Origin: Fibrobacter sp. UWB4
GTDB taxonomy: Bacteria > Fibrobacterota > Fibrobacteria > Fibrobacterales > Fibrobacteraceae
Assembly (NCBI RefSeq): GCF_002210345.1
Contig: NZ_MWQI01000008.1
Coordinates: forward strand, 1 to 64,000
Direction: 5' to 3'
Length of the DNA: 64,000 nt
This document shows, piece by piece, positions 56,740 through 64,000 of the stretch (positions are counted from its first letter, which is position 1; every line of letters begins with the position of its first letter). Under the pieces are notes generated by a model that had not been told where the DNA came from, made no database searches, and worked only from the letters and a program-made list of their open reading frames with translations. Both the position numbers and the translations under genes were made by a program.

Positions 56740-57588
56740 CTAGATTTCCATGAAGGCTTTGAGGTCGCCCATGCGGCGCTTGGCATATTCAAAGCCCATG
56801 TTATAAGTTTCATCGAGCTTTTCACGGTCGGTCTCGAAAAGGTCACAGACCTTGCTCTCCGGGCGGAAAATCAAAAGATTGCCCGTCTTTTCGAGTTTTT
56901 CCATTTCAGCAAACATCTTCTCGTAACGCTTGTAACGCAACATAAGCGCACGGAAGAAATCTGGATACTTGCGCTTGAACACCGGATTCAAGACCATCCG
57001 GAACTTGCGAAAGTCCGTCACACTTTCACCGGGGTAATGCGTCGAGACGACAACGACCTTGTCACAGCCCTTTTCAAAGGCGCGCTTGTACGGAATTGGA
57101 GAAGTGACACAGCCATCCGCATAATGCTTGCCATCAATTTCAGCAATCGGGAAAAGAATCGGAAGTGCGCTACTCGCGTTAACAATGTCGAGCAACCGCT
57201 TTTCGCTCATGTACTCCTGGAAGAATTCCGAGCGGCCCGTTTCACAGCACGTAAGGCCAAATTCGCATTCAACGCCCGAACCAAAGAACAGGTGAAAATC
57301 GAACGGAATATCGCCATACGCAGCATTGTAATGGAGCGCATGGCACTCTTTCTGGATCCCATCAAGAATGCGGTTGGCGTGATCCATCCCGTGCTGGATT
57401 TTAGTCGGCTGAATGATATGGCGGAAACGTCCACGCTGACGCGTGACAAAATTCATCGCGGCATGGCAACCGGCACTCACACCCGTAAAATACGAGAAAT
57501 AAATATCCTCGTCCATCCAGGCATCTAGAACACCTGCCGTAAAAATGGTCTGACGCGAACCACCTTCAAGAGCCAAGCCAATCTTCAC
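56740..57588 (-). CDS. Patatin-like phospholipase (RssA/YjjU type)
   Basis: 282 residues. Oxyanion loop LEGGSRQTIFTAGVL (about 7-21), nucleophile elbow GVSAGC with the catalytic Ser (about 38), and catalytic Asp in YADGCVTSPIPY (about 158). It is cytoplasmic with no signal peptide. GTG start overlapping the plsC stop by one base, so the two are translationally coupled. The expected activity is release of fatty acids from (lyso)phospholipids; its place at the end of an acyl-chain cluster suggests lipid remodelling or product release. Confidence 0.88.
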   Translation of the reverse strand: MKIGLALEGGSRQTIFTAGVLDAWMDEDIYFSYFTGVSAGCHAAMNFVTRQRGRFRHIIQPTKIQHGMDHANRILDGIQKECHALHYNAAYGDIPFDFHLFFGSGVECEFGLTCCETGRSEFFQEYMSEKRLLDIVNASSALPILFPIAEIDGKHYADGCVTSPIPYKRAFEKGCDKVVVVSTHYPGESVTDFRKFRMVLNPVFKRKYPDFFRALMLRYKRYEKMFAEMEKLEKTGNLLIFRPESKVCDLFETDREKLDETYNMGFEYAKRRMGDLKAFMEI

Positions 57589-58298
57589 TACTTGCTCTCC
57601 TCAGGAATGATTTCTTCAGGAGTTTCAGCCGCGACAGGAAGAATAGCCCCCTGCTGTCCTAAAGCAATCTGCTTCAGGTTCCAGACCTTCTGGCGGAAGT
57701 ATTCGCTGCGTTCTGCCAGATGCTTGGATGACGGGATCCCCTTGACTCGTTCAATCTTTTCGGGTTCGTCCACCACAATCTGCGTGCGGTGCCCAATCTT
57801 GTAAATGCCATCAATGCCAACAGAAAGAACCGGTGCGCCCGTACTGCGGGCGAGGAACGCAAATCCCGTCTTGAACTCGTTCAACAAGCCGTCATAGCGG
57901 CACTTGCCTTCCGGGAAAATAATAACGGAATTGCCCTTTTCAAGTTCCTTCTTTGCAATCAAGGCCCATTCGGTATCGAGATTAAAGCGATCGCAAGGAA
58001 TAACATTCTTAAAGCGGGATAGAGCCCAATGAAAATGCGGGTCTTCGACCTGGTCCTTGGCGACAACGATACTGCGCTTATGGAAGAACAAAGACTGCAC
58101 CAACAACGGGTCAAGCATACTCGTGTGATTTACAATGATAATCATCGGCTCCTTAAGGTCAGTCGACTTGACCGACCCTAAGAACTTCATCTTGGGACGA
58201 TAAAATACTAACAAGTAAGTGCGCACCAAGTGAACAACCAGGAAGAGCACAAACTTCCAGAACAAATCAGCAATTATTTTTTTCGATTTTTCAATCAT
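57588..58298 (-). CDS. plsC: 1-acyl-sn-glycerol-3-phosphate acyltransferase-like (PlsC family)
   Basis: 236 residues from the ATG at 58298. One N-terminal hydrophobic helix (about 10-35), acyltransferase motif 1 NHTSMLD (H-x4-D, about 56-62) and motif 3 FPEGKCRYDG (about 135-144). It would transfer acyl groups from ACP or CoA to a lysophospholipid or other acceptor at the membrane. Here it sits between FabZ and patatin, so an acceptor other than lysophosphatidate is possible. Confidence 0.86.
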   Translation of the reverse strand: MIEKSKKIIADLFWKFVLFLVVHLVRTYLLVFYRPKMKFLGSVKSTDLKEPMIIIVNHTSMLDPLLVQSLFFHKRSIVVAKDQVEDPHFHWALSRFKNVIPCDRFNLDTEWALIAKKELEKGNSVIIFPEGKCRYDGLLNEFKTGFAFLARSTGAPVLSVGIDGIYKIGHRTQIVVDEPEKIERVKGIPSSKHLAERSEYFRQKVWNLKQIALGQQGAILPVAAETPEEIIPEESK

Positions 58299-58323
58299 CC
58301 GCAAACGTATTTTTCTATTTGAA

Positions 58324-58429: not shown

Positions 58430-58873
58430 TCACTTTCCGAGGCTTTCCTTAGGAATGGACGTAAACGTAAGGGAACCCTTGGCGTGGACATTGCCGTTCA
58501 CCTTGACAACGCAGTCAAAGCCGACGATAACTCCACCGCCCTTCGTCTTGTTGACGGAGATTTCGAGCTGGTCGCCCGGAATCACAGGCTTCACGAACTT
58601 GAAACCGTCAATCTTCAAAAGAACGTACAAGTTCTTTTCGAGGTCTTCGGCCGGCTTCTCGATAACGAGAGAGCAGAGCTGGGCGCAGGCTTCGCAAATG
58701 AGGACGCCCGGCATAATCGGGGTGCCCGGGAAGTGGCCCATGAAGTACGGTTCGTTCACGGAAACATTCTTAATGCCCGTTGCAGATTCGTTCGGAACGA
58801 GTTCCGTGACCTTTTCGATCATCTGGAAAGGCGGACGCTGGGCAATCTTTTCGCTGATCTGGTAAATGTTCAT
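58430..58873 (-). CDS. fabZ: 3-hydroxyacyl-ACP dehydratase (FabZ)
   Basis: 147 residues from the ATG at 58873, which overlaps the fabG stop (TGATG). Hot-dog fold with catalytic His in GHFPGTPIMPGVL (about 47-59) and Glu in EACAQLCSL. It removes water from 3-hydroxyacyl-ACP to give the trans-2-enoyl chain. Together with FabG and the KS fusion it completes an elongation cycle up to the enoyl stage. No enoyl reductase is in view, so the chain could stay unsaturated or be reduced by an enzyme encoded elsewhere. Confidence 0.92.
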   Translation of the reverse strand: MNIYQISEKIAQRPPFQMIEKVTELVPNESATGIKNVSVNEPYFMGHFPGTPIMPGVLICEACAQLCSLVIEKPAEDLEKNLYVLLKIDGFKFVKPVIPGDQLEISVNKTKGGGVIVGFDCVVKVNGNVHAKGSLTFTSIPKESLGK

Positions 58874-59604
58874 CACAGGGAAAGACCTCCATCCAAAACG
58901 ATGACCTGCCCCGTCACATAAGCGAACTGGTCAGAAGCAAGTGCAGAAACGACGTTTGCGACTTCGTCAGCAGAAGCAAAGCGCTTGAGAGGCACCTTTT
59001 CGAGGTAGCCCTTGCGGGTTTCTTCCGGGATGGCTTCGATCATTTCTGTAGCGACAAAGCCCGGAGCGACAGCGTTCACGCGGATACCGTAACCGCCAAG
59101 TTCCTTGGCAAGCGTCTGCGTAAAGGAGTTCACGGCGCCCTTCGTGGCACTGTAAACAGCCTGGCCAGCGAGAGCGAACTTGGAAGAAACAGAAGACATG
59201 TTGATGATCACGCCAGACTTCTGCTTGTACATCTTGACAGCGACCTGCTGTGCGCAGTAGAAGTAGCCCTTCACGTTCAAGTCAAAGCACTTGTCGAGCG
59301 TATCTGGGTTCATCATCAAAAGATATTCGTCACGGACAATGCCTGCGTTGTTCACGAGCACGTCGATACGGCCATAAGCCTTGAAAACATCGCGCACCAT
59401 CTGCTTGACTTCGGAAAGCACGGCGACGTTTGCCTTGTAGACCATGCCATCGCCACCTTCGGCCTTAATTTGTTCAAGCGTCTGGAGTGCAGCGTCATCA
59501 GAGCTGGAGTAGTTTACGACGACCGTGTAGCCGTCACGAGCGAGGCGGAGGGCACAAGCCTTGCCAATCCCCTTAGAAGAACCAGTAACGATTGCAACTT
59601 TCAT
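58873..59604 (-). CDS. fabG: 3-oxoacyl-ACP reductase (FabG)
   Basis: 243-residue short-chain dehydrogenase. TGSSKGIG cofactor loop (7-14), NNAG (about 88-91), catalytic Ser-Tyr-Lys with YSATK (about 151-155), and the C-terminal GQVIVLDGGLSL. It reduces 3-oxoacyl-ACP with NADPH. It lies 21 bases after the KS fusion, with AAGGAG before the ATG. Confidence 0.94.
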   Translation of the reverse strand: MKVAIVTGSSKGIGKACALRLARDGYTVVVNYSSSDDAALQTLEQIKAEGGDGMVYKANVAVLSEVKQMVRDVFKAYGRIDVLVNNAGIVRDEYLLMMNPDTLDKCFDLNVKGYFYCAQQVAVKMYKQKSGVIINMSSVSSKFALAGQAVYSATKGAVNSFTQTLAKELGGYGIRVNAVAPGFVATEMIEAIPEETRKGYLEKVPLKRFASADEVANVVSALASDQFAYVTGQVIVLDGGLSL

Positions 59605-59625: not shown

Positions 59626-62019
59626 TTATTTACCGAGAACGACGGCGCTGTAAGAACCGCCCGTAGCAAAAGACGTGACCAGGATCTTCTTGAAGCCCGC
59701 TGTTGCGACCTTCTTCTTGGACACTTCGCCATTTGCAATAAAGTAGGCGTTTTCTTCGGCAAGTTCACCACCGAGCATGAGAGCGGCTTCGGCAGCGGCG
59801 AGTGTCGCAGAAGCGGCACGGCCTTCGCCCACGCGTTCCTTCACCTGGAAGAGCGGGAGGCTTGCGAGCTTGTCGCCAAACACGCGAGCGTATGCGCCCT
59901 TTTCGATATCGTCAATCTTCTTGAAGCCGTTTGCAAAACCGCAGACAGCGTCAATTTCGTCAATGCTGACGCCTGCATCGTTGAGGGCATCCTTGATAGC
60001 GATGTCGAGAGCTTCGTCAGAACCGGAGATGTGACCGAACTTCACGTTCTTGCGGCCATTGCCGTAACCGAGGGCGTAGCAGTAAACCTTTGCACCACGG
60101 GACTTGGCGTAGTCTTCGGTTTCCATGATGATAGAAACGGAGCCATCGCCCACCACAAAGCCATTGGAGTTGGAATACGGTTCCACCACCTTGTCGGCAG
60201 CGACGTTCATCTTCTGGCAGAGTTCGGTGATGATCGGGAGATTTTCGTCCGTACCCGTAGCCATCATAGCCTCTTCCTGACCGTCGTGGATGACGTTCAT
60301 GGAGTAGCCGATGCTATCGAGACCGGAGAGCGGACCCGTCGTGATGGTGACGCCGTAGCCCTTGATTCCAGAGAGGATCGAGAGATAGCCACCGGCGGCA
60401 TTATAAACTGTGTGAGGGAACTTGAAGGCGCTACCGCCTGCATTACCGGCTTCGGCAATGAGTTCCTCGAAATCGTAAGTGGCACCGAGGCCGCCTTCGC
60501 TGGTACCCACGATGATACCGATCTGCTTGGCGTTATCTTCAGTGACCGTAAAGTTTGCATCCTTGAGGGCGCGCATGCCGGACACAGTCTGGAGCTGTCC
60601 CAGATTGTCGAGCTTGCGGTAGAAGGCCATCTTGATGCCGAGTTCCTTGTAATCGTCGTTCGTGACGGTAGAGCAAATGGAAGCGGATTCCGGGAGCTTA
60701 CCGTTCTTGACGGCGTCAAGGTAAATTTCCTTGCTGTTTCCGATTGGGCTAACAATGCCAATACCTGTCACAGCAATCTTCTTATCCTTAGCGACCTGGC
60801 TCTGCACATCGCCCGGCTTCTTGCTGAACACGATACTTGCGTTCGTGCCGCCGAAAGCGACGTTGTTGCTCATGACGCATTCGAGTTCCTTAGTACGCGG
60901 GGTGTTCTGCACGTAGTCCATTGTGCCGACCTTGGCCTTGAGGGCTTCGGAATCTTCGGCAGAGTAATGGAGCGTCGGCAAAACGGTGTTCGTCGTGAGA
61001 GCCTTGATGCTGAACACGGCTTCGATTGCACCGGCAGCGCCGAGGCAGTGGCCCGTCATTACCTTGGTCGAACTGACACTCAAGGTCGGATTTTCTTCGT
61101 CGAAGAACTTGTGGAATGCATTGATTTCTGCATTGTCGTTCTTGCCCGTACCCGTACCGTGAGCGTTCAGGTAACCGATGTCAGACTTCTTGATGCCAGA
61201 ATTCTTGACAGCGCGGTTCATCGCTTCGAGGAGGCAGACGCCATCTTCGCGAGGAGCAGTAATGTGGTGGGCGTCGCTTGTAACACCTGCGCCGAGAACT
61301 TCGCAATAACGCTTGGCGTTACGCTTTTCGGCGTGTTCCAGAGATTCGACAATCACGATGCCGGCACCTTCACCGAGGGTGATGCCGTTGCAGTGGTTGA
61401 ACGGAGAGCAACCGTTTTCGTCCAAGGCATGGAGCGAAAGGAAGCCGGAATACGGAACAGAAGCAAAGGAGTCAGAGCCACCGGCGATCACGACATCGGC
61501 TTTGCCTGCGCGGATAAGGTCGCAAGCAAGAGCAATGGAAATCGTACCGGCAGCGCAAGCGTTACCCACGTTTGTGACAATGCCGCCCGCATGGCAAGCT
61601 TCTGCCACCTGGGAGGCGATTGCGGCAATGGGCATCTTCGGAATTTCGTTGACATTCTTACCGTGGCGATGGTACTGTTCAATGCTGAGGACGCCACCCA
61701 CGCAGCTACCGATGATGACGCTTACGCGGCTGCTATCGGCAAAGTCACCGAGACCAGCATCGTTCAGGGCTTCTTTCATAGCCTTGATGCAGAGCTTGGA
61801 GGCGCGGTCCTTTTCGTCCGGGCATTCAATATCGTCCAGCGTATCACAGTTCACTTCGGCAGCGAGGTCTGCATAGCAGTTCTTGGTATCGAGAGAAGTG
61901 GTCTTGTGAATGCCGGAGACGGAATTCAGGGCGTTTTTCCAGGTTTCTTCAACATTGTTGCCTACAGCGCAGATAACGCCAAGGCCAGAAACAACACAGC
62001 GACGATTATTAGATGTCAT
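59626..62019 (-). CDS. Ketosynthase fused to a catalytically dead ketosynthase (KS-CLF-like)
   Basis: 797 residues from the ATG at 62019, twice the length of FabF. Domain 1 (about 8-402) is a complete ketosynthase: Cys155 in GNACAAGT, His287 in NAHGTGTG, Lys319 and His324 in STKVMTGHCLGAAG. Domain 2 (about 413-797) has the same thiolase fold (ITGI start, GTSEGG, FATGGSYSAVVL end), but the nucleophile is Pro563 (TTGPLSG), the first His is replaced (GFANGF) and the second is Glu732 (VGEGRAA). This active/inactive pairing resembles the KS and chain-length factor of type II polyketide and aryl-polyene systems, here on one chain. It lies between acp and fabG. Confidence 0.85.
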   Translation of the reverse strand: MTSNNRRCVVSGLGVICAVGNNVEETWKNALNSVSGIHKTTSLDTKNCYADLAAEVNCDTLDDIECPDEKDRASKLCIKAMKEALNDAGLGDFADSSRVSVIIGSCVGGVLSIEQYHRHGKNVNEIPKMPIAAIASQVAEACHAGGIVTNVGNACAAGTISIALACDLIRAGKADVVIAGGSDSFASVPYSGFLSLHALDENGCSPFNHCNGITLGEGAGIVIVESLEHAEKRNAKRYCEVLGAGVTSDAHHITAPREDGVCLLEAMNRAVKNSGIKKSDIGYLNAHGTGTGKNDNAEINAFHKFFDEENPTLSVSSTKVMTGHCLGAAGAIEAVFSIKALTTNTVLPTLHYSAEDSEALKAKVGTMDYVQNTPRTKELECVMSNNVAFGGTNASIVFSKKPGDVQSQVAKDKKIAVTGIGIVSPIGNSKEIYLDAVKNGKLPESASICSTVTNDDYKELGIKMAFYRKLDNLGQLQTVSGMRALKDANFTVTEDNAKQIGIIVGTSEGGLGATYDFEELIAEAGNAGGSAFKFPHTVYNAAGGYLSILSGIKGYGVTITTGPLSGLDSIGYSMNVIHDGQEEAMMATGTDENLPIITELCQKMNVAADKVVEPYSNSNGFVVGDGSVSIIMETEDYAKSRGAKVYCYALGYGNGRKNVKFGHISGSDEALDIAIKDALNDAGVSIDEIDAVCGFANGFKKIDDIEKGAYARVFGDKLASLPLFQVKERVGEGRAASATLAAAEAALMLGGELAEENAYFIANGEVSKKKVATAGFKKILVTSFATGGSYSAVVLGK

Positions 62020-62055
62020 AGAAATTCCAAACAATACTCAAATAAAAAGGCTTGA

Positions 62056-62301
62056 TTAAGCCTTGTTCTTTTCGATGAAAGCGGCGATGGTATCGATGCT
62101 CTGGAAGTTTTCCTTTGCAACGCCAGTCATGGAAACGCCGAAGTTGTCATCGACGAAGGAGATGATTTCAAGGGAGTCCACGGAGTCAAGACCGATTTCT
62201 TCGCCGAAAAGCGGAGTATCGTAATTCAGGACATCACCATCTACGCCGAGATCGGACATAAAGAATGCCTTGAGTTTGCTCTTGATTTCTTCGTTTGCCA
62301 T
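62056..62301 (-). CDS. Acyl carrier protein
   Basis: 81 residues, acidic, four-helix ACP fold. Ser40 in GLDSVDSLEI is the 4'-phosphopantetheine site. It begins the leftward acyl-chain operon, 36 bases before the KS fusion. A promoter box CTATCTTTG (minus strand, 62343-62335) lies about 34 bases upstream of the ATG, with AGAGGA as ribosome site. It may be the general ACP or one dedicated to this cluster. Confidence 0.92.
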   Translation of the reverse strand: MANEEIKSKLKAFFMSDLGVDGDVLNYDTPLFGEEIGLDSVDSLEIISFVDDNFGVSMTGVAKENFQSIDTIAAFIEKNKA

Positions 62302-62553: not shown

Positions 62554-63402
62554 ATGATTTCATACGTATTTCCCGGTCAGGGTTCTCAGTTCCCAGGAAT
62601 GGGCAAAGATTTATTCGAATCGAACGCCGACGTAAAGTCGATGTTCCTCAAGGCAAACGAAATTCTCGGCTTCAACATCACTGACGTGATGTTCAATGGC
62701 ACCGCAGAAGACCTCAAGCAGACGAAAGTCACGCAGCCAGCAGTGTTCCTGCTCTCTGTTGCTATGGCTAAGGTCCAGGGTGGCAAGCCGGATATGGCCG
62801 CAGGGCATTCGCTTGGCGAATTCTCCGCACTCACGGCCACGGGCGCCATCACATTTGAAGCAGGCCTCAAGCTCGTTGCAAAGCGTGCAGAAGCCATGCA
62901 GAAGGCTTGCGAACTCCGCCCGGGTACGATGGCCGCTGTTCTCGGCGGTTCTGATGAACTCGTCGAAGAAGCTTGCGCACAGGTCAAGGACGCAGCCGTT
63001 GTTCCGGCAAACTTCAACAGCCCGGGACAGGTCGTTATCTCTGGCGAAAAGAAGGGCATTGACGAAGTTGCCGCTTACCTCACCGGCAAGGTGAAGCGCG
63101 TCGTTCCGCTGCAGGTCGGTGGTGCATTCCACTCCCCGCTCATGGAAAGCGCCCGTGCAGAACTTGCAAAGGCTATCGAAGAAACTGAATTTTCGACTCC
63201 GGTCTGCCCGGTCTACCAGAACGTAGACGCCAAGCCGCACACGGATCCGAACGAAATTAAGGCTAACCTTCTCACTCAGCTCACCTCCCCCGTCCGCTGG
63301 ACACAGACGGTCAAGAACATGATTGCAGACGGCGCCACAGAATTTAAGGAACTTGGCCCCGGCGAAGTTCTTACCAACCTTATCAAGCGCATTCAGAAGT
63401 AA
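62554..63402 (+). CDS. fabD: Malonyl-CoA:ACP transacylase (FabD)
   Basis: 282 residues. FPGQGSQ start, catalytic Ser86 in GHSLGEFSAL, and His in GGAFHSPLM (about 194-202). It loads malonyl units onto ACP. It diverges from the acp-KS-fabG-fabZ operon across a 250-base AT-rich gap, and the carboxylase gene follows after 21 bases. Length and motifs are standard. Confidence 0.95.
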   Translation: MISYVFPGQGSQFPGMGKDLFESNADVKSMFLKANEILGFNITDVMFNGTAEDLKQTKVTQPAVFLLSVAMAKVQGGKPDMAAGHSLGEFSALTATGAITFEAGLKLVAKRAEAMQKACELRPGTMAAVLGGSDELVEEACAQVKDAAVVPANFNSPGQVVISGEKKGIDEVAAYLTGKVKRVVPLQVGGAFHSPLMESARAELAKAIEETEFSTPVCPVYQNVDAKPHTDPNEIKANLLTQLTSPVRWTQTVKNMIADGATEFKELGPGEVLTNLIKRIQK

Positions 63403-63423: not shown

Positions 63424-64000
63424 ATGTGGGATAAATCGTATTTAGAAAAGTTGAGCGAACGCAACGCCAAGGCTCAGGCCGGTGGCGGCGCCGCTCGTGT
63501 AGAAAAGCAACATTCCCAGGGTAAGCTCACGGCTCGCGAACGCCTTGAAATCCTTTTTGACAAGGGCACGTTCAAGGAAATCGGTGCCATGCGCCTTTCC
63601 CAGAGCATCGAACTCCCGGAATCCAAGCGCATTTACGGTGACGGTGTCGTAACGGGTTACGGCAAGATCAATGGCCGCCCGGTTTACGCTTGCTCCCAGG
63701 ACTTCACGGTGAGCGGCGGTTCTCTCGGTTCCGCACACGCCAAAAAGATCTGCCACGTGATGGACCTCGCCCTTGATTCCATGGTGCCGTTCATCAGCAT
63801 CAACGATGGCGGTGGCGCCCGTATCGAAGAAGGCGTTAGCTCCCTCGACGGTTACAGTGGCATCTTTGCCCGTAACACTTGGGCAAGCGGCGTGATTCCG
63901 CAGATTTCCGTGATTCTCGGACCGTGCGCAGGTGGTGCTTGCTACTCCCCGGCTATCACAGACTTTATCTTCATGACCGAAAAGACGAGCCAGATGTTCA
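63424..64000 (+). CDS. Acyl-CoA carboxylase carboxyltransferase (beta) chain, partial
   Basis: The first 192 codons; the gene runs off the right edge. N-terminal GKLTARERLEILFDKGTFKE, then FTVSGGSLGSAHAKKICHVMDLA and GGGARIEEGVSSLDGYSGIF, LGPCAGGACYSPAITDFIFM: the carboxyltransferase fold of propionyl-CoA carboxylase beta / methylmalonyl-CoA decarboxylase alpha. An AGGAA site lies before the ATG. Next to fabD it might supply malonyl- or methylmalonyl-CoA, but it could equally belong to propionate or succinate metabolism; the missing downstream genes would decide. Confidence 0.88.
   Translation, partial: MWDKSYLEKLSERNAKAQAGGGAARVEKQHSQGKLTARERLEILFDKGTFKEIGAMRLSQSIELPESKRIYGDGVVTGYGKINGRPVYACSQDFTVSGGSLGSAHAKKICHVMDLALDSMVPFISINDGGGARIEEGVSSLDGYSGIFARNTWASGVIPQISVILGPCAGGACYSPAITDFIFMTEKTSQMF

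Follow-up and report, generated by a model that had tools for sequence, protein, structure and literature searches.

In the ketosynthase/chain-length factor (KS/CLF) pairs of type II polyketide, aryl polyene and polyunsaturated fatty acid (PUFA) systems, an inactive ketosynthase stands beside an active one, and the CLF shapes the pocket and the length of the chain (PMC8358021). Aryl polyene (APE) synthases are built around a core consisting of such a KS-CLF condensing enzyme, a ketoreductase (KR) and a dehydratase (DH) (PMC8358021). PUFA synthases combine KS and CLF in a single chain, and the two have been proposed to dimerise within it (PMC13311796, citing Santin 2020). Fusion of a KS to a CLF is in itself already known from these megasynthases.

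The locus studied here lies in Fibrobacter sp. UWB4, in a stretch of 64,000 nucleotides (the window). It encodes an active KS (D1) and an inactive KS-fold domain (D2) on one chain, within a compact operon that has its own acyl carrier protein (ACP), KR and DH. We propose that the protein is the single-chain KS/CLF of a small type II synthase, which would make a specialised acyl chain, probably unsaturated, destined for a membrane lipid; we assign this reading a probability of roughly 0.55. That the fused protein works in a KS/CLF-like mode can be said with considerable confidence.

The fused protein and its two ketosynthase domains

The coordinates of the features are collected in Table 1. The ATG at 62019 is the favoured start because the start of the Lachnospira eligens orthologue agrees with it. 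An alternative TTG at 62034 would extend the frame to 59626-62034 on the minus strand (802 aa), and residue numbers follow this longer version throughout. Pfam detects ketoacyl-synt and Ketoacyl-synt_C twice each in the 802-aa chain and no other type of domain, bearing out the initial annotation, which had placed two KS domains on one chain. D2 is of full length, according to both Pfam and the AF2 model.

Table 1. Features of the fused ketosynthase gene and its neighbours (positions in the window)
Feature	Position	Strand	Evidence or remark
Fused ketosynthase/inactive ketosynthase	59626..62019	-	797 aa from ATG 62019; single ORF across the genus
D1, active KS domain, residues 11-403	60826..62004	-	Pfam PF00109 and PF02801
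D1 codon Cys160	61555-61557	-	
D1 codon His292	61159-61161	-	
D1 codon Lys324	61063-61065	-	
D1 codon His329	61048-61050	-	
Inter-domain linker, about 14 residues (404-417)	60784..60825	-	Domain boundaries in alignment; composition variable
D2, KS fold lacking catalytic residues (418-802)	59629..60783	-	FabF alignments, AF2, Foldseek
D2 codon Pro568	60331-60333	-	
D2 codon Phe700	59935-59937	-	
D2 codon Lys732	59839-59841	-	
D2 codon Glu737	59824-59826	-	
Dedicated acyl carrier protein, 81 aa	62056..62301	-	PF00550
Dedicated 3-ketoacyl-ACP reductase, FabG-type	58873..59604	-	Pfam/NCBIfam
Dedicated FabZ-type dehydratase	58430..58876	-	NF000582, over cut-off
PlsC-like (LPLAT) acyltransferase	57588..58304	-	PF01553; in most, not all, Fibrobacter operon copies
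Patatin-like lipid hydrolase with DUF6363	56740..57588	-	PF01734, PF19890
FabD malonyl-CoA:ACP transacylase	62554..63402	+	TIGR00128, over cut-off; accessory, at this place in part of the genus only
Predicted acyl-CoA carboxylase carboxyltransferase subunit	63424..64000	+	Exceeds the window; 513 aa when complete (genomic ORF, L005 8425-9966)

D1 has the Cys-His-His set and the lysine that had been read by eye, and C160, H292, K324 and H329 are invariant among 36 distinct sequences of the fused protein, taken from Fibrobacter and a sister genus. A residue-by-residue alignment to the FabF columns places Pro568 of D2 at the cysteine, Phe700 at the first histidine and Glu737 at the second, with Lys732 retained. 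P568, F700, K732 and E737 are likewise invariant in the 36 sequences, and the L. eligens orthologue has Ala at the cysteine position. The original reading of Pro, Ala and Glu at these positions was correct for Pro568 and Glu737 and mistaken for the alanine, A701 lying one column off. Its broader point, that D2 has no catalytic residues, survives the alignment to FabF, with the cysteine and both histidines gone and the lysine left. One partner with Cys-His-His and another without a nucleophile is the arrangement of a KS/CLF pair; judged by its residues, D2 is incapable of catalysis.

A different role for D2 would be that of a priming, decarboxylating (KSQ-like) domain. KSQ-type decarboxylases carry Gln at the Cys position and require the active-site histidines. 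Such a domain would make the acetyl starter and compensate for a missing FabH, and indeed no KAS III domain was found in the genome with PF08541 or PF08545, models that were positive in 10-11 of 14 control genomes. However, the relevant positions of D2 are occupied by Pro (Ala in the L. eligens orthologue), Phe and Glu, and the genomes without the cassette also have to prime. We rejected this candidate and consider such a function very improbable.

The AF2 model of the full chain, from a 12-row alignment of close sequences, had a pLDDT of 34, and that of D2 alone, from 31 rows, a pLDDT of 79.8 and a pTM of 0.85. In a Foldseek search, the D2 model matched FabF-type KSs at query TM values of 0.78-0.84, and the ishigamide KS/CLF came further down; because the alignment rows were mostly FabFs, this ranking informs on fold and not on function. 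FabF-type KSs also gave the best scores in a PDB search with D1, in which an Iga11-type KS was among the matches.

The D1s and the D2s of the Fibrobacter-type di-KS form separate clades (100/100 each) in a tree of 53 rows (LG+C20+F+G4 PMSF). All catalytically intact KSs (FabF, KSalpha, split KSalpha and every D1) stand together on one side of the tree (90/85). D2, the CLFs and the other inactive partners lie outside it, a grouping that could partly be due to attraction, given the long branches. The sister of D2 is the second domain of a di-KS from a Priestia megaterium plasmid (97/95). A common clade of D1 and D2 is rejected (AU p=0.02), so that a recent tandem duplication in place was discarded as the origin of the pair. 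Three other topologies were not rejected: D1 with FabF (p=0.187), D2 with the actinobacterial CLFs (p=0.114), and all fused D1s together (p=0.309).

D2 is under purifying selection, with a dN/dS of 0.07-0.17 compared with 0.05-0.10 for D1 in the same sequence pairs, the more distant of which have a dS close to saturation. This somewhat faster evolution is what might be expected if D2 were a mere structural tail or degenerate passenger and D1 functioned as an ordinary FabF homodimer. Yet the selection on D2 is strong, its former active-site positions are invariant, and every D1 observed in the genus was accompanied by D2, except where a contig break intervenes, making a passenger quite improbable. 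Residues, conservation, selection and phylogeny support the earlier suggestion of an active/inactive pair in one chain, similar to KS/CLF.

We propose that D1 would condense malonyl units, with decarboxylation, on the ACP of the cassette. By analogy, D2 would be its built-in partner, resembling a chain-length factor and taking the place that a second subunit has in the KS dimer (a pseudo-heterodimer). It may contribute to the form of the acyl pocket and of the surface on which ACP docks, and may in this way exert control over chain length.

A dedicated cassette beside housekeeping fatty-acid synthesis

The operon runs on the minus strand in the order ACP, di-KS, FabG, FabZ, PlsC and patatin, with FabD and the carboxylase subunit diverging from it. 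Pfam confirmed all the flanking proteins named at the outset (ACP, FabG, FabZ, PlsC-type transferase and patatin), and the cluster is without an enoyl reductase, as had been claimed. The relatives share the order ACP, di-KS, FabG, FabZ; the upstream side varies, and PlsC-like and patatin genes are found downstream of FabZ in most of them, not all. The cassette is co-inherited: D2 and the cassette FabZ (counted at at least 90% identity) occur together across the genus, with two discordant genomes (G095, and G074, which is 81% complete).

Terminator-like hairpins of unrelated sequence lie between the ACP and di-KS genes in the window (62047-62064) and at two other loci (L049 6676-6800 and L065 7704-7795). 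They could lower the amount of KS relative to ACP. For the window, the terminator scan is not above chance, with terminators in the operon near the shuffled mean; promoters numbered 8 versus 4.8 (sd 2.0), and neither count is taken as a signal. Directly upstream of the ACP, several Fibrobacter cassettes encode a conserved protein of 350-375 aa with a hydrophobic N terminus (L062 6069-7202, L064 11353-12426, L065 6280-7326 and L067 6459-7586); at L062, a 4HBT thioesterase lies between the two. A BamA-like barrel was considered for this protein and dropped, the L064 copy having no Pfam match.

Elsewhere in the same genome there are two stand-alone FabF-type KSs, both on another contig, a housekeeping FabG-ACP locus adjoining PlsX and RNase III, a second FabZ-type gene and the enoyl reductase FabV. 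The fused di-KS scores 474 bits with the housekeeping FabF equivalog TIGR03150, below the cut-off of 493.75, and exceeds the cut-off of the broader FabF subfamily model NF005589. With that score and an inactive second domain, it was not accepted as a housekeeping FabF.

These findings bear on the two alternatives left by the initial annotation. According to the first, the fused protein is the main fatty-acid condensing enzyme of the lineage, a built-in heterodimer that replaces FabF. Its position in the window beside FabD and a carboxylase subunit, in a genome in which no FabH was found, would suit such a role. Nevertheless, a search for a separate, normal fabF gave two, and these genes, FabV, the housekeeping FabG-ACP locus and the fact that 10 of the 40 good-quality Fibrobacter genomes do not have the fused gene disfavour the idea to the point where it is hardly credible. 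The cassette, which a quarter of the good genomes do without, is probably dispensable and not the cell's main fatty-acid machine.

The second alternative, a polyene or specialised acyl chain, is favoured, its product being a proposal. The dedicated FabG would reduce, and the dedicated FabZ dehydrate, each beta-keto group. Since the core common to Fibrobacter and L. eligens (ACP, KS, KR and DH) has KR and DH and no enoyl reductase, an unsaturated chain is most likely, probably polyunsaturated and of polyene type. KR and DH without ER in a dedicated gene set, here with FabV in the host, is also the composition of polyene type II PKSs. The polyene case is not sealed, because Val112 of D1 aligns with Asp113 of Iga11, the residue that gives the polyene KS of ishigamide an acidic notch; the ApeO-ApeC structure is also without an acidic notch (PMC8358021). 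No report of a pigment or polyene from Fibrobacter was found in the open-access literature. The PlsC-like enzyme of Fibrobacter would transfer the acyl chain from ACP to a membrane lipid, and the presence of this transferase in Fibrobacter and of PlsX in L. eligens suggests a lipid destination.

The chain might instead be saturated, given that the host FabV could act in trans. The same single-chain KS/CLF would then serve an accessory fatty-acid synthase supplying an ordinary acyl chain of fixed length for membrane lipids. FabV is encoded by the genome, the L. eligens operon with its FabD, AccD/AccA and PlsX resembles a fatty-acid and phospholipid supply operon, and D1 is closest to FabF-type KSs in the PDB and may be placed with FabF in the tree. 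However, all copies have in common only ACP, KS, KR and DH, and an accessory synthase that is missing from a quarter of the good genomes while duplicating FabF, FabG and FabZ needs a special reason. We regard saturation in trans as less likely and retain the unsaturated chain as the preferred reading.

Distribution, the Lachnospira eligens orthologue and other KS/KS clusters

Within the 168 Fibrobacterota genomes searched, the fused protein is present in most genomes of Fibrobacter and in 6/6 of one sister genus, and it was not found in the remainder of the family. D2 occurs in 52 of the 80 Fibrobacter genomes and in 30 of the 40 of good quality; the other ten lack the fused protein. D2 always shares one open frame with D1 in the 52 carriers, the single exception being a gene split by a contig break. 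Named records carrying the fused gene, from a scan of genome contigs, are Fibrobacter succinogenes and Fibrobacter sp. A sequencing error that joined two ordinary KS genes had been named as a possible refutation. This is excluded: the fusion is genuine, because independent genomes and a second phylum carry it. No relatives of D2 were found in viral contigs.

When each half was compared with plasmids by tblastn, one match was outstanding, on a plasmid of 627 kb from the Bacillota species Lachnospira eligens ([Eubacterium] eligens), which is represented by two records. It reached 55-56% identity per domain, compared with about 24-39% for the others among the matches listed. The fused gene, EUBELI_RS11640, encodes 797 aa with 62% overall identity, and the gene order is TetR-hydrolase-ACP-diKS-FabG-FabZ-FabD-AccD-AccA-flavodoxin-PlsX. 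Identities between Fibrobacter and L. eligens are 64% for ACP, 62% for the di-KS, 72% for FabG and 66% for FabZ, and only 39% for FabD. By comparison, the cassette ACP and FabG are 31% and 40% identical to their housekeeping counterparts in the same genome. By sequence comparison, the ACP-diKS-FabG-FabZ quartet is orthologous between Fibrobacter and the L. eligens megaplasmid, and the high cassette identities beside the low values for FabD and for the host FabG and ACP point to its horizontal movement across phyla.

A more tentative idea, which we hold to be possible rather than probable, is that of an undescribed, gut-specific type II class. In it, a KS/CLF on a single chain, accompanied by a dedicated ACP, KR and DH, would make a polyene membrane lipid, and the cassette would have been transferred as a whole between Fibrobacterota and Lachnospiraceae, the latter represented by the two L. 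eligens plasmid records.

Both the L. eligens cassette (L090 20298-21020) and one Fibrobacter cassette (L065 13025-13786) are adjoined by a flavodoxin-fold protein whose cysteines form a compact CxxCxxCx7C motif, the two proteins being 40% identical. The motif resembles those of iron-sulphur flavoproteins, and relatives lie near other di-KS clusters (L072, L076). It is possible that this protein provides a missing redox step.

Other Fibrobacterota contain adjacent, separate genes for a KS and an inactive-looking KS (L053-L061, e.g. L059 6698-12779). Their neighbours are ACP, FabG, FabZ, B12-type radical SAM proteins and CrtI-like oxidoreductases, a gene content resembling proposed ladderane or polyene clusters, and the best PDB match of the KS is 9s5h chain B. 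They were rejected as unfused ancestors, the inactive partners grouping with other di-KSs and not with Fibrobacter D2. Two fused di-KSs per cluster occur at L071 6589-12710, L072 8325-14422, L073 6633-12703 and L076 7078-13112, where a 1250-aa B12-binding radical SAM-KS-KS protein is followed by a KS-KS of 760-777 aa and then by ACP, GcvT-like, FabG and FabD. Another genus of the same family has a different di-KS of 813 aa with an apparently inactive second domain, adjoining FabG, FabZ and ACP (L068 7517-9958). The plasmid-borne di-KS of P. megaterium pBMG6 (L099 3795-6224) has 809 aa, its second domain being inactive; the cluster around it also encodes PPTase, FabD, FabG, ACP and FabZ, together with a GcvT-like protein and a transporter of the MFS type. 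In the genome of the window itself (G000), several carrier-protein domains were also observed in frames of 967-2124 aa at C4:93547-110292, suggesting a large NRPS or PKS cluster.

Significance and comparison with described systems

No description of a stand-alone fused KS-CLF in a minimal ACP-KR-DH cassette common to Fibrobacter and Lachnospira was found in the open-access literature. If the proposal is correct, type II chain-length control could be studied on one polypeptide with a fixed 1:1 stoichiometry, and the four-gene cassette (ACP, KS-CLF, KR, DH) would be small enough for rebuilding in E. coli. Rumen Fibrobacter and human-gut L. eligens would then share an unreported lipid or pigment. 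The case would also be a warning that the automatic annotation 'beta-ketoacyl-ACP synthase' hides KS/CLF didomains.

The KS-CLF didomain of PUFA synthases (PfaC, or PfaB of thraustochytrids) likewise has an active KS followed by an inactive CLF in one chain. PUFA synthases, however, are type I megasynthases with further domains, whereas the protein described here is an isolated one of 797 aa that accompanies stand-alone ACP, KR and DH. It contains only KS domains and scores 82 bits with the NCBIfam model omega_3_PfaA, far below the cut-off of 1010, and was not assigned to the PfaC type.

ApeO-ApeC of the aryl polyene systems is likewise a KS with an inactive partner, working with KR and DH. 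Unlike the fused protein, these are separate proteins, and ApeC is half-size, with one thiolase fold, whereas D2 is full length. The APE cluster of E. coli CFT073 also includes a second KS (ApeR), an MMPL exporter, an acyl-CoA synthetase and other genes that are absent from the window and its relatives. With a full-length D2 and no ApeR, exporter or acyl-activating neighbours, the cassette was not classified as an APE system.

The type II polyketide KSalpha/KSbeta (CLF) pairs of actinorhodin and of Streptomyces also consist of an active and an inactive KS encoded together, with an ACP partner. They differ in having separate genes, with aromatase/cyclase and monooxygenase neighbours, and D2 stands apart from the actinobacterial CLFs in the best tree, although a common grouping is not rejected. 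Iga11-Iga12 of ishigamide, a polyene-forming KS-CLF, also belongs to a type II system; it is formed of separate subunits and has an acidic-notch Asp113 in Iga11 where D1 has Val112. The di-KSs of P. megaterium and of other Fibrobacterota (L068, L071-L076) similarly join an active and an inactive KS in one chain; they are about 30% identical and are surrounded by other genes, encoding GcvT-like, PPTase, MFS or B12-radical SAM proteins.
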